From contig SVKV01000005.1 in assembly GCA_015068305.1 (NCBI GenBank), positions 27,637-91,636 of the forward strand: a stretch of DNA of 64,000 nucleotides, written 5' to 3'. Position numbers and translations under genes: made by a program. The notes below the pieces were generated by a model. It ran no database searches, was not told the origin of the DNA, and saw nothing but the letters and a program-made list of their open reading frames with translations. Source of the DNA: Oscillospiraceae bacterium (GTDB lineage: Bacteria > Bacillota > Clostridia > Oscillospirales > Oscillospiraceae). Positions 17,557-38,454 of the stretch are shown here, piece by piece (position 1 is the stretch's first letter; each line of letters starts with the position of its first letter).

Positions 17557-20202
17557 TTAACCCAGCTTTTCCATGGCAGCCAGGCTTTCTTCCAGCTGCG
17601 CGATGAGATCCGCAGTTCTGGCGGCCTTTTCACGCTCGGCGGCCACAACAGCCTCGGGAGCCCGACCAACAAACTTCTCGTTGGAAAGCTTTGCTTCCAG
17701 GGAAGCCAGGAACTTCCGGTTCTTCTCCAGTTCCTTGTTGATCCGCTCCAGCTCCTTGGCAACGTCAACCAGCTGACCCATGGGGATATAGAGCTTGGCA
17801 TCGGCGGTGGTGATGGTCACCATGCCGTCCAGGTTAGCAGGCTCTGCATCCAGGAGCTTCACCTCATCCGCATAAGCCAGCCGCTGCAGGAAGCCTTCGC
17901 CCTCAGTGAAGATCTGGGGCTTGGCCGTCAGAACGAACAGGGCTGCCTTCTTGGAGGGGGGCACGTTCATTTCGGTACGGCGGTTGCGGATGGCCCGGAT
18001 GGCATCCATCACGGACTCCATCATATCAGCCTCAGCCTTGAAGTTCAGTTCATCCTTGTACTCGGGCCACTTGGCAACGATCAGTGCATCGCCCTCGTGA
18101 GGAATGGACTGCCAGATTTCCTCGGTGATGAAGGGCATGAAGGGATGCAGCAGACGCAGCACCTGGTCCAGAACGTAAACCAGAACCTTCAGCGCAGTAT
18201 CCTTGCGGTCGGCATCGTCAGCAAAGAGTCTTGCCTTGGTCATCTCGATATACCAGTCGCAGTAGATATCCCAGATAAAGTCATAGATCTTGGAGATGGC
18301 AACACCCAGTTCATACTTATCCATGTTCTCGGTGACTTCTGCGATGAGGGTATTCAGCTTGCTGAGCACCCACTTATCGGCAATTTCCAGCTTTTCGGCT
18401 GCGGGCAGCTCGTTCTTGGCATCCTCAGGCAGGTTCATCAGCACATAGCGGGATGCGTTCCACAGCTTATTGGCAAAGTTGCGCATGGCTTCGCAGCGCT
18501 CCACATAGAAGCGCATATCGTTGCCGGGGCTGTTGGAAGAAACCATGTTCATGCGCAGGGCATCGCAGCCGTACTTGTCGATCATTTCCAGAGGATCAAT
18601 GCCGTTACCGAGAGACTTACTCATCTTCCGGCCCTGATTGTCACGGACCAGACCGTGAATCAGAACGGTGTGGAAGGGGGTCTTACCGGTATGCTCGCAG
18701 CCGGAGAAGATCATTCTGGCAACCCAGAAGAAAATGATGTCATAGCCGGTGACCAGCACGTCGGTGGGATAGAAATAGTCCAGATCCTCAGTTTTGCCGG
18801 GCCAGCCCAGAGTCTCGAAGGGCCACAGGGCAGAGCTGAACCAGGTATCCAGCACGTCCTCTTCCCGGGTGATCTTGGTGCTGCCGCACTTCTGGCAGGT
18901 GCAAATATCATCACGGGAGACGGAAATATGGCCGCAGTCAGCACAGGTCCAGGCAGGAATCTGATGACCCCACCACAGCTGACGGGAGATGCACCAGTCA
19001 CGGACATTCTCCATCCAGTTCATATAGGTCTTGGAGAAGCGGTCGGGAACAAACTTGGTCTCGCCTTCCTTCACCACACGGATGGCTTCCTCTGCCAGGG
19101 GCTTCATCTTCACGAACCACTGGGCGGAGATAATGGGCTCCACATCCTTGTGGCAGCGGTAGCAGGTACCCACATTGTGGGCGTGGTCTTCGATCTTGAC
19201 CAGGTAGCCCTGCTCTTCCAGATCAGCGACGATGGCCTTACGGGCATCGTAACGGTCCATACCCTCGTACTTGCCGCCAAACTCGTTGACAACACCGTTG
19301 TCGTTCAGCACACGGATGACTTCCAGATTGTGCCGCAGGCCCACTTCAAAGTCGTTGGGGTCATGGGCGGGAGTCATCTTGACGCATCCGGTACCGAATT
19401 CCATCTCGGCATAATCATCGGCAACGACAGGAATTTCCTTGTTCACCAGGGGCAGAATGACCTTCTTACCCACGATGTCCTTATACCGCTCATCGTTGGG
19501 GTTGACGCAGACACCGGTATCGCCCAGCATGGTCTCGGGACGGGTGGTTGCAACCACCACTTCGCCGGAGCCGTCAGCCAGAGGATAACGGATATGCCAC
19601 AGGTGACCGGGCTTATCCACGTACTCAACCTCTGCATCGGACAGTGCGGTAACACAGTTGGGGCACCAGTTGATAATCCGGCTACCCTTGTAAATGAGGC
19701 CCTTCTCATACAGGGAAACGAAGACTTCCCGGACAGCCTTGGAGCAGCCTTCATTCATGGTAAATGCGCTGCGGTCCCAATCGCAGGAGGCACCCAGCTT
19801 CTTCTGCTGTTCCACAATCCGGTTGCCGTACTTGTTCTTCCAGTCCCAGACCCGCTCCAGGAACTTCTCGCGGCCCAGGTCATACCGGCTCAGGCCTTCC
19901 TTCACCCGCAGTTCTTCCTCAACCTTAATCTGGGTTGCAATACCTGCATGGTCAACACCGGGAATCCACAAAGCGTTGTAGCCCTGCATCCGCTTGAAAC
20001 GGATCAGCGTATCCTGCAGCGTTGCGTCCATGGCGTGACCCATGTGCAGCTGGCCGGTGACATTGGGAGGGGGCATGACGATGGTGAAGGGCTTCTTGCT
20101 GCGGTCCACCTCCGCATGGAAGTAGCCGCCTTTCTGCCACATGTCATAGATACGGGACTCCACCTGCTGGGGCTCGTAGATCTTCGGCAGTTCTCTTGCC
20201 AT
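17557..20202 (-). CDS. valS: Valyl-tRNA synthetase
   Basis: 881 residues, full length class I synthetase. The HIGH-type motif appears in [16 protein letters not shown] near residue 45-55, and KMSKS as [11 protein letters not shown] near residue 525. An editing domain lies between, and a C-terminal coiled coil ([13 protein letters not shown]) ends the protein. Two CxxC pairs (YRCH, CADCG/CQKCG) are seen in bacterial ValRS. It charges tRNA-Val. Expression is set by the valine T-box directly upstream. Confidence 0.97.
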
Positions 20203-20244: not shown

Positions 20245-20476
20245 GAACTAAAAAAGCCCCGAAGCATAGCTTCAGGGCGAAAATTCCGCGGTACCACCTG
20301 ACTTCCCGAATAAACGGGCACTCAAACGCTGTAACGGGCTGACCCGGTCTTCCCTACTATCCTTTCAGAAAAACAGCTCCGGGGCGACAAACCGTTCAAC
20401 CCATTACCGCCTTGCACCGACCGGCGGCTCTCTGAAACAGGTTTTGAGCGGAAACTCCCCTTCTATGCCTTTAACT
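20245..20476 (-). promoter_or_regulatory. T-box riboswitch, valine (GUC specifier), upstream of valS
   Basis: The minus strand carries the invariant T-box AGGTGGTACCGCG (plus 20286-20299) followed by a terminator stem GCCCTGAAGC/GCTTCGGGGC and TTTTTT (20249-20279). Stem I shows the CAGAGAGCCGCCGGTCGGTG region. In the specifier-loop position, aligned against the tyrosine T-box at 30.7 kb, stands GUC (plus 20386-20388), a valine codon. Uncharged tRNA-Val should pair with this codon and with the T-box bulge and allow read-through into valS. Confidence 0.93.
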
Positions 20477-27872: not shown

Positions 27873-27900
27873 GAAAGCGGCCTCCTTTGAGGCCGCTTTC
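27873..27900 (+). terminator. Bidirectional terminator after dapA
   Basis: A 12-bp perfect stem GAAAGCGGCCTC/GAGGCCGCTTTC with a CTTT loop. It lies exactly between the convergent dapA and GNAT genes and overlaps the end of the dapA stop. Confidence 0.8.
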
Positions 27901-27901
27901 G

Positions 27902-28369
27902 TTACATGCTTTTCTCGTAGTAGACAATATCCATTCCGTCTTTCAGGTGATCCACTCTGCCGGTCTTTCTGTAACCGATTTTTTCATACAGATAGCAGAG
28001 CTTTTCCTCCTGGGCAATGGTGTCCAGTTCCCACAGTCCGGCTTTCGGATAAAGATCTTCCATCAGCCGGATGGCTTTCTGGGCATAGCCGTTCCCCTGA
28101 AATTCCGGCAGGATACAGATGGGTGATAGTTTGCAGGCTGCACCAAAATCGCAGACTCTGAGGGCTCCGATCACAGATCCGTCCAGCTCGATCAGATAGT
28201 AATCTGTAAAGGACTGATCAAACCGGCGGTAAATATCATCCAGAGACTCTGAAGCAGGATTGCTGTCGTAATCCTGGTATTTTAGAAGAATCGGAGAAAA
28301 CGCCTTGACCTGGATCCGGTGAATGGTTTCACAGTCGGACCGGTCAGCTTTTTTTAAATCAATCATCAA
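27902..28369 (-). CDS. GNAT acetyltransferase
   Basis: 155 residues. It opens with DLKKADRSDCETIHRIQ, and the acetyl-CoA pyrophosphate loop is seen in LSPICILPEFQGNGYAQKAI (R/QxxGxG/A). Near the end, YEKIGYRKTGRVDHLKDGMD is the typical last strand. Substrate unknown. It lies in a short gap behind tyrS on the same strand, 44 bp downstream, so it may be read from the tyrosine T-box transcript. Confidence 0.85.
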   Translation of the reverse strand: MMIDLKKADRSDCETIHRIQVKAFSPILLKYQDYDSNPASESLDDIYRRFDQSFTDYYLIELDGSVIGALRVCDFGAACKLSPICILPEFQGNGYAQKAIRLMEDLYPKAGLWELDTIAQEEKLCYLYEKIGYRKTGRVDHLKDGMDIVYYEKSM

Positions 28370-29651: not shown

Positions 29652-30584
29652 TTATTGGGCTGCGCTGCCGATCAGTTGGATCAGCTTATCGCGCAGAAAA
29701 CTTACATTCTTTTCATCCAGGACCGTATCCTTTTTGGTATGGATCCTGCCGCAGTAAAGACCTGCCCATTTGCTCCTGCGGAAGGCGGCAATACCAACGC
29801 CGGAGGGGAAATTTTTCTGATCGGAGGGATAATAGGCAAAACCCTTTTCCCGAAGCGCCAGACTCTTTCCTTCTCCTTCACCGCAGATGCTTCGCAGCGC
29901 GTCCATCTGCAGGGCATCCTGCTTTGTTTTCTTATTGGGGAACAACATCAGCTCATCGCCGTCGCCGACACAGTCGCAGTTGAGAATGATCTGATCCTTG
30001 ATCTGCTTTTTGTGGGCGCTTGCATAGGATGCAGAGCCGATCAGACCTGCTTCTTCCAGGTCAAACAGGACGAAGCAGACCTGTTCTCTCAGTTCTGCCG
30101 GCAGTGATTTTGCGGTTTCCAGAACCGTCACCACGCCGGAGGTATTGTCATTGGCATTATGCTTATTGGCAGGGCCAACCATCATCAACACAAGAAATAT
30201 CCAGACCGACATATATCCGGACCAATAACCCAGAAAGCTGTCCCGGGTCAGCAGATAAACGGCAGCACCCACTATGCCCACCATTGCAAACATGAACGCG
30301 ACTACAAACAGCTGGTAGGCCATAAATGCCCAGAAATTGCAGGGTGTGATCAGATTGGGAAAAGGCAGCCGGGCCGGGGTGTCATAATGGGCGGTCACCA
30401 GATATTTAGCCGTTTCCGGGTTGCCGATCAGCAGATTCTTTGCACCAAAGCTTCCTTTTTCCACATTCACAGCATATCCAAGTCCTTCGCCATAGGACTG
30501 AACCGCATCCCGGAAGGCCTGTTTCTGTTTCTTATTCTTGCGCACAGGAAATGCATTTAAAACATCCATGGGATTTTCGATCAT
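29652..30584 (-). CDS. M28-type metallopeptidase with membrane insertion
   Basis: 310 residues. Metal ligands of the M28 aminopeptidase fold are spread as VTAHYDTPA (about 65), NANDNTSGV (about 142), [11 protein letters not shown] (about 172), [10 protein letters not shown] and a late RIHTKKDT (about 287). Between the first two sit two hydrophobic helices (about 83-107 and 115-136), an unusual insertion that would anchor the catalytic domain to the membrane. It is directly behind the tyrosine T-box and 14 bp ahead of tyrS, suggesting it is made when tyrosine is short. Substrate unknown. Confidence 0.85.
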
Positions 30585-30604
30585 GGTATCTCCTCCTCTC
30601 TGCG

Positions 30605-30863
30605 AAAAAACGCCCCCTGTCCTTTCGGACAGAGGGCGTGAAAATTACGCGGTACCACCTCTGGTTCATCTGCATCTCACAATACAGACCTCACGGCGTC
30701 CAACAACGCCTCTCGCTGTTTCGGGCGACCCCGTCCTCCCCTACTGTCATTTCAGGCAGGCCACTCCGGGAGGTATTTCAGCGGTTTTTCCCACTGCCTT
30801 GCACCAACCGGCAGCTCTCTGGCGGAAAAGGGGTCGCTTACTTCGTCCCTTCGTCGTGTTTAC
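30605..30863 (-). promoter_or_regulatory. T-box riboswitch, tyrosine (UAC specifier)
   Basis: Minus strand: the T-box AGAGGTGGTACCGCGT (plus 30646-30661 region), then a terminator stem from CGCCCTCTGTCC/GGACAGGGGGCG with a TTTTTT tail (30605-30638). The upstream stem I has CCAGAGAGCTGCCGGTTGGTG. The specifier position reads UAC (plus 30773-30775, GAAA-UAC-CUCCCGGAG), a tyrosine codon, fitting tyrS two genes downstream. The whole 258-nt gap between the peptidase and the 120-aa gene is this leader. Confidence 0.93.
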
Positions 30864-30869
30864 TGAAAT

Positions 30870-30898
30870 ATCCTAACAAATATTAGGCACTTTGTCAA
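30870..30898 (-). promoter_or_regulatory. SigmaA promoter of the tyrosine T-box operon
   Basis: Minus strand TTGACA (30893-30898), 17 nt, TAGGAT (30870-30875), starting just after the stop codon of the upstream 120-aa gene. Confidence 0.75.
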
Positions 30899-37186: not shown

Positions 37187-37780
37187 TTATTTCTTAGTTT
37201 TCTTTTTCCGGAACAGATCCGGCACATGGTTCAGCCAGTAAATCAGCTTACCGACGGTGTGAACAATTTCGGTGGCGGAATTCACCGCAAAGGTTTTGCC
37301 GATGGCCTTGCCGCCCACCGTCAGACCGGCACAGAGTGCAGACATCAGCAGAGAAATAATCTGAGGCCATCCGAAATCCATGCTGCGCAGAATCTGGGCA
37401 GCGATGGTTGCAGAAGCAGAGCCGGAAACAACGCCGCAGATATCGCCCACCACGTCATTGCAGATGGAACTGACCCGCTCCGCATTCCGCAGGAGTCTGA
37501 TGGAAGCCTGGGCACCGGGCACTTTCCGGGCAGCCATGGAATGGAAAGGTTTTTCGTCGGCAGTGGCAACAGCCATGCCGATGATATCAAAGATAATACC
37601 CACAAGAATGATGGCCAGCAGGATCAAAAAAGCGGTAACGATACCGCTTTTAGCCATCACTTCGTCAGAAATGAACGAAATGGTACCGGAAATGACAATG
37701 GTAACCAAAAAAATGGTGACGACCCAACGGATCGTCTTGTTCCGCTCCTTTTTTATGGCAGCGGGATCAGACTTAGACAC
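37187..37780 (-). CDS. oapA: OLE-associated membrane protein OapA
   Basis: 197 residues, four probable membrane helices (about 18-37, 45-70, 112-130, 137-158) and a conserved loop TADEKPFHSMAARKVPGA after helix 2, then CNDVVGDICGVVSG. This matches the DUF21/CNNM-like small protein encoded next to OLE RNAs, usually about 180 residues. It lies between the 620-nt structured RNA region and dxs, exactly the OLE-oapA-dxs arrangement known from alkaliphilic Bacillus. OapA binds OLE RNA at the membrane and is tied to Mg2+ and alcohol/cold stress. The start is probably a GTG next to 37780. Confidence 0.78.
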   Translation of the reverse strand: MSKSDPAAIKKERNKTIRWVVTIFLVTIVISGTISFISDEVMAKSGIVTAFLILLAIILVGIIFDIIGMAVATADEKPFHSMAARKVPGAQASIRLLRNAERVSSICNDVVGDICGVVSGSASATIAAQILRSMDFGWPQIISLLMSALCAGLTVGGKAIGKTFAVNSATEIVHTVGKLIYWLNHVPDLFRKKKTKK

Positions 37781-37799
37781 GAGAATTACCTCTTTGGAT

Positions 37800-38419
37800 T
37801 TTTTAATGGGAGACGGCAGCAGACAGGATAAATCTTACGGCTTAGGTCGGGTTGTCTTTCACCGCAAAGAACCTGTCGTTGCCGCACAGGCCGTTTCCAT
37901 TTAATCCCTGCGCTCATGCGTCGCCGCCATGAGTACCCGATTGCCACTGAGACCGTACTGTAATCCCCTGTCTGCCCAATTACGACAGCCTAGGTGTTTT
38001 CCACGACAAAGTGATCCATAGTCTTAGCCTCTTTTGCAAGGATGGTTTCCAGAGGCAATGAAGACAGACGCTTGGCCGAGCGTTCAGTCAACTGGTCCTC
38101 TTTCCCCGCATACTCACTCAAGGCAGGCTACACTGCACGTAGCACACGATTCTGTGCACCACTTTGCAGGTTCTTTTCCCGGCCCGTACGCGATGGGATC
38201 CCGCTAGGGACATTTCCCTCGTCGCACAATACCAGGTCTCCACGGAAAACGGGTCGTATGCTCCATGCCATTGGGGCGCGCCCGTAATCCTTAACCCCCA
38301 GCACCCACCCTAAACTGGGCGTAAAAAGCAGGCACCAGGGACTTCATCGATGTGCCCTTCAAAGGATTTTTAGGCCCTTCCTGGAAGATGGTCACCCCGA
38401 CTAGGATACTGCACCGTCG
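37800..38419 (-). ncRNA. ole: OLE RNA (ornate, large, extremophilic RNA)
   Basis: About 620 nt on the minus strand with no plausible coding frame in either direction, preceded by a promoter and ending just before oapA. Length (OLE is about 610 nt), gene order (OLE-oapA-dxs-tlyA-argR-recN) and the OapA-like neighbour all fit. The region is GC-rich and full of local inverted repeats, for example GAGGGAAATGTCCCT and ACGGGCGCGCCC. It does not contain RNase P, SRP or tmRNA signatures. The 5' end is estimated from the promoter; the 3' end from the oapA start. I infer identity mainly from synteny and size and have not run a covariance model. Confidence 0.75.
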
Positions 38420-38425
38420 GAATAA

Positions 38426-38454
38426 ATCATAACACATTCTGAATGAATATACAA
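38426..38454 (-). promoter_or_regulatory. SigmaA promoter of the OLE-oapA-dxs operon
   Basis: Minus strand TTGTAT (38449-38454), 17 nt, TATGAT (38426-38431). It places the RNA start near 38419. It lies after the terminator of the NUDIX gene, so the OLE transcript starts here rather than coming from further upstream. Confidence 0.7.

Follow-up and report, generated by a model that had tools for sequence, protein, structure and literature searches.

A gene for an M28-family metallopeptidase stands between a tyrosine T-box leader and tyrS in the genome of an uncultured gut-type member of the Clostridia. The locus is quite probably a tyrosine T-box operon that belongs to tyrS, in which the peptidase, a predicted cytosol-facing M28 exopeptidase tied to the membrane, is an optional gene. 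The operon lies on the minus strand of the window, i.e. the whole stretch of 64,000 nucleotides that was analysed. A sequence-only reading of this DNA had drawn attention to positions 29652–30898, which span the peptidase gene, the leader and the promoter, tyrS lying outside.

Organisation of the operon

Table 1. Features of the tyrS operon in the window.
Feature	Position	Strand	Evidence and remarks
Sigma-70-type promoter, TTGACA-17-TAGGAT, extended -10 (TG)	30870..30898	-	Perfect -35 hexamer; T-box model begins a few bases on
T-box leader RF00230, tyrosine-specific	30629..30863	-	Rfam covariance model, 111.8 bits
Specifier codon UAC (Tyr)	30773..30775	-	Covariance alignment
T-box UGGN element, UGGU	30654..30657	-	Covariance alignment; would pair with tRNA ACCA end, discriminator A
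Intrinsic terminator, alternative to antiterminator	30610..30639	-	-27.1 kcal/mol, z = -8.1
M28-family metallopeptidase, 310 aa, internal membrane hairpin	29652..30584	-	Pfam, AlphaFold2
tyrS, tyrosyl-tRNA synthetase, 407 aa	28414..29637	-	TIGR00234, E = 7e-119
GNAT acetyltransferase, probable third operon gene	27902..28369	-	PF00583, 1.2e-9; start ATG at 28366 or TTG at 28369
GC-rich hairpin past GNAT gene, probable operon end	27873..27900	-	Read directly; common to a convergent gene

The unit runs from a consensus promoter through the T-box, the terminator and the peptidase gene to tyrS, and probably on to a GNAT acetyltransferase gene (Table 1). A good ribosome-binding site lies upstream of the peptidase ORF, and tyrS starts 14 bp past the peptidase stop codon, as the sequence-only reading had it. 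The GNAT gene, located ~45 bp downstream of tyrS, is probably the third member of the operon; in several relatives, a different GNAT gene is found downstream of tyrS. A mobile-element origin was also considered, and no matches were obtained in plasmid or phage collections.

The 14-bp gap is too small for a promoter or a terminator, and no transcript start is expected between the two genes. Given one promoter and one tyrosine T-box, transcripts from that promoter would thus serve both the peptidase gene and tyrS, and this anatomy makes joint expression of the two genes probable when tyrosine is limiting. Additional transcripts of tyrS alone may arise from a promoter within the peptidase gene. 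To this extent the proposal that the T-box controls both genes stands; control as a property of the peptidase itself is not supported (see below).

T-box leader and promoter

T-box control of tyrS is textbook knowledge. The leader scored 111.8 bits in the covariance search, as compared with a gathering threshold of 93, and matched the RF00230 model completely (positions 1–219). In the covariance alignment, UAC occupies positions 2–4 counted back from the end of the specifier loop's 3′ strand, the place of the specifier by the rule given in PMC7778990. Thus, the leader is tyrosine-specific, as had been proposed, and its specifier matches the synthetase encoded downstream. The antiterminator is present in the same alignment, together with the competing terminator. 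The leader includes UGGU; the 44 tRNA matches obtained in the 95%-complete assembly did not include the organism's own tRNA-Tyr. UAC was present in all 34 leaders compared, and each of the 34 T-box loci has a promoter site (at least 10 of 12 matches, 17-nt spacing) 3–16 nt before the T-box model.

B. subtilis tyrS is cited as the founding T-box example in PMC2494555 and PMC7778990. Like the T-box of that type (RF00230), the leader includes Stem I, a UAC specifier, a UGGN antiterminator and a terminator upstream of tyrS. Unlike it, an optional gene, for the peptidase or for a metallo-β-lactamase (MBL)-fold hydrolase, lies here between the leader and tyrS. When uncharged tRNA-Tyr accumulates, its pairing with specifier (UAC) and bulge (UGGU) would allow the antiterminator to form, and polymerase would read the peptidase gene and then tyrS. 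With charged tRNA-Tyr, the terminator would stop transcription upstream of the peptidase gene.

A second T-box in the window (20270–20474, minus strand, 113 bits) has a GUC (Val) specifier and precedes an 881-aa valS-like gene (17557–20202, minus strand). The window also includes a full OLE RNA (RF01071, 446 bits; 37797–38433, minus strand). Directly downstream of the OLE RNA, an ORF for a 197-aa membrane-protein-like product (37187–37780, minus strand) occupies the place expected of OapA, and dxs-like and tlyA-like genes are found further downstream on the same strand.

Fold, metal site and membrane hairpin of the peptidase

The peptidase matched Pfam Peptidase_M28 (PF04389) with E = 5.7e-18 and 65.8 bits (gathering threshold 21.3). 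AlphaFold2, run with 35 sequences, predicted an M28 fold at high confidence (pLDDT 96.3, pTM 0.93), and Foldseek matched the model to M28 aminopeptidases (1CP7, E 1.9e-10; 1AMP, TM 0.59–0.62). The metal ligands H66, D146, E178, D204 and H282 and the catalytic E177 are all present. Profile alignment with the Vibrio aminopeptidase (AAP) placed D146, E177/E178, D204 and H282 opposite the ligands and catalytic Glu of AAP (D117, E151/E152, D179 and H256); H66 lies within an HYD motif common to YwaD. In the model, the ligands are found where core strands end or helices start, H66 ending strand 61–66 and D146 starting helix 144–160, in agreement with M28 enzymes in general. The fold, the five ligands and the catalytic Glu, as well as the motifs HYD, NDNxSG, FDxEE, NxD, SDxxxF and HTxxD, are thus those of MEROPS family M28 (PF04389), represented by the Vibrio (1AMP), Streptomyces griseus (1CP7) and B. 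subtilis YwaD (6HC6) enzymes. Judged by retention of the ligands and the Glu, the window peptidase is apparently catalytically active.

The two membrane helices noticed earlier between the first and second ligands were located in the model at residues 84–113 and 116–136. Hence, 80 residues separate H66 from D146, whereas the corresponding motifs of YwaD are roughly 12 residues apart. Unlike 1AMP, 1CP7 and YwaD, the window peptidase has no evident secretion signal. The hairpin leaves both soluble halves on one side, and the loop between its helices is very short; as no signal sequence is evident either, the cytosolic side is likely. From hydropathy, the place of the helices in the fold and the missing signal, the soluble domain likely faces the cytosol. 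The protein would then be an M28 exopeptidase with two metals, held at the inner membrane face by a helical hairpin that interrupts the fold after the strand of the first ligand and before the helix of the second. It would probably trim short peptides, imported or membrane-derived, at the membrane. Eukaryotic GPAA1 likewise has an M28 domain linked to the membrane. In GPAA1, this domain faces the lumen and, as modelled, does not include the membrane segments (PMC7522609), whereas the hairpin of the window peptidase is inside the catalytic domain.

Hydropathy scanning of 36 sequences, down to ~30% identity, revealed two hydrophobic peaks side by side in the interval from the first to the second ligand motif, the second peak falling below the cut-off in one sequence. 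The hairpin layout is universal within the homologues examined of this M28 subfamily, and is absent from the bacterial M28 enzymes of solved structure that were matched. The layout had been called rare, which is correct by comparison with the solved enzymes and incorrect within the subfamily. The subfamily itself is patchy, being found in 23 of 201 genomes of the family, 8 of 197 in an order sample (single-sequence search) and 4 of 399 in a phylum sample.

Retention and loss of the metal site

H66, D146, E177, E178, D204 and H282 are all kept in 48 of 56 homologues; one sequence is cut by a contig end and seven have lost ligands. The dN/dS ratio is about 0.16–0.42 in live pairs. The seven sequences (L025, L087, L088, L089, L091, L094 and L095) form one clade (support 100/99) and have lost D146 and/or E177, E178, D204 and H282. 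Their ORFs are full-length; dN/dS is about 0.25–0.27 for three pairs, as compared with 0.58 for the pair from lineage g28. The intact ORFs and low dN/dS give them the look of retained non-enzymes, apparently kept under purifying selection. An AlphaFold2 model of this clade has the same order of elements, with pLDDT 77.7 from only 7 sequences, and adds little. These ligand-losing M28-fold membrane proteins are encoded next to recN and, in g28, also next to tyrS.

The existence of this related clade is the ground for considering that the window peptidase, too, is no enzyme but an M28-fold membrane protein with a metal-binding or structural role. This is highly improbable, as the full set of ligands and the catalytic Glu persist across the window protein and 47 other homologues at identities of about 28–66%.

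Occupancy of the slot between the T-box and tyrS

Thirty genomes of the genus, the window included, have a readable tyrS context. The slot before tyrS holds the peptidase gene in 12, in one of them together with an MBL-fold hydrolase gene, the MBL-fold hydrolase gene alone in four, and no gene in 14. The promoter and the T-box stay with tyrS, peptidase or not, in all 29 loci that have the leader region. In the thirtieth (G009), 345 bp of contig precede the peptidase gene, and in the nearest relative the T-box lies 413 bp before that gene; hence the leader is seen in 11 of the 12 genomes with the T-box-peptidase-tyrS order. No T-box with a peptidase gene and without tyrS was seen among the loci examined. 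The T-box-peptidase pair recurs in two genomes of a second genus (g198): tyrS follows in one, and the contig of the other breaks off within the peptidase gene. The slot peptidases of both genera form one clade (100/99). The genes are closely spaced, and in three relatives the peptidase and tyrS ORFs overlap by 4 bp. The poorly resolved tyrS tree gives at least 10 changes between slots with and without the peptidase gene. The gene pair proposed in the sequence-only reading does recur, namely in 12 genomes of the genus and in g198, but it is not conserved as a functional unit, being absent from 18 genomes in which T-box and tyrS remain.

The hydrolase (PF13483) encoded between the tyrosine T-box and tyrS was found in the relatives' loci L042, L045, L054, L067 and L068, alone or after the peptidase. 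Unusually long gaps (264–418 bp) occur around the peptidase gene or before tyrS in three relatives, at L006 (1087–1501), L010 (2421–2706 and 1200–1465) and L047 (1082–1501), and may be small inserted repeats.

Peptidase genes at other loci

Elsewhere, the peptidase gene adjoins recN, uvrB-like and uvrA-like genes, or unrelated genes. It is next to uvrB-like and uvrA-like genes in L076, L080 and L081, and between them in L076 and L080. A T-box scan of unpaired peptidase loci covered L016–L025 and L030–L040, a set separate from the loci with uvr genes or recN that came from the family survey; no T-box was detected upstream at the gathering threshold in either set, nor at E<0.01 in L016–L025. Retention of promoter and T-box by tyrS in 29 of 29 loci, and homologues elsewhere that have no detected T-box, argue against tyrosine-starvation control as a property of the peptidase, which the sequence-only reading had assumed.

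In g28, recN and tyrS flank the gene, whose product has lost its metal site, and no T-box was detected at the locus. The recN-tyrS neighbourhood also occurs with neither the peptidase nor a detected T-box (G049, L070). A single clade for all tyrS-adjacent peptidases was rejected (p-AU 0.0025), the g28 copies grouping with the ligand-losing recN-adjacent clade. In G025, the peptidase gene lies downstream of a T-box-MBL-tyrS-GNAT unit. A hairpin, GACCCAGG-CTTG-CCTGGGTC, with the T tract CTGTTTTT, lies between the GNAT and peptidase genes; it was read by eye and is absent from the pattern-scan listing. Given this terminator-like hairpin, G025 was set aside as a second route to T-box control.

Discussion

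By the distribution of the loci, the T-box appears to be tyrS's own and the peptidase an optional member of its operon. In the model proposed earlier, the peptidase was selected for its place behind the tyrosine T-box, since peptide breakdown supplies tyrosine when charging of tRNA-Tyr falls. The gene order kept in two genera, the translational overlaps in some relatives and the gene directly before tyrS in the sister lineage g28 are consistent with such coupling. However, metal ligands are missing from the g28 copies, no T-box was found at their locus, and in other lineages the gene has uvrB/uvrA or recN as its neighbours. A role in tyrosine release is further weakened because the gene is optional, is replaceable by one for an MBL-fold hydrolase and has no detectable T-box control elsewhere. 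Selected coupling is therefore considered unlikely.

A general membrane-linked job unrelated to tyrosine, e.g. clearing signal-peptide fragments or trimming imported peptides, with T-box control only incidental, is given a little less than an even chance. It would account for gene neighbours that vary across families, for a hairpin found throughout the subfamily and for a narrow, patchy distribution, but the T-box would give poor expression when tyrosine is plentiful, which is odd for a housekeeping role. As regards the exact job of the peptidase, this alternative overlaps with the preferred explanation, an optional exopeptidase gene in an operon owned by tyrS. There, the peptidase would inherit its regulation from tyrS and would have its own general task of trimming peptides at the membrane side.

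A full-text search of open-licence papers found no description of a peptidase gene accompanying tyrS in a T-box operon, nor of a membrane hairpin within the catalytic domain of an M28 enzyme. As far as that literature goes, both features are new. A wider reading is speculative and rather doubtful: a distinct M28 subfamily, its active site held at the inner membrane face by a hairpin next to the metal site, would yield amino acids from membrane-delivered peptides under the tyrS T-box, while a sister branch would have lost the metal site and become a non-enzymatic membrane protein. With the hairpin subfamily, the idea of an exopeptidase whose active site is held at the membrane can be put to the test. 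The loci form a natural series, with a fixed RNA switch and synthetase and a changeable first gene, that asks whether genes under T-box control are chosen for their function or inherit that control.
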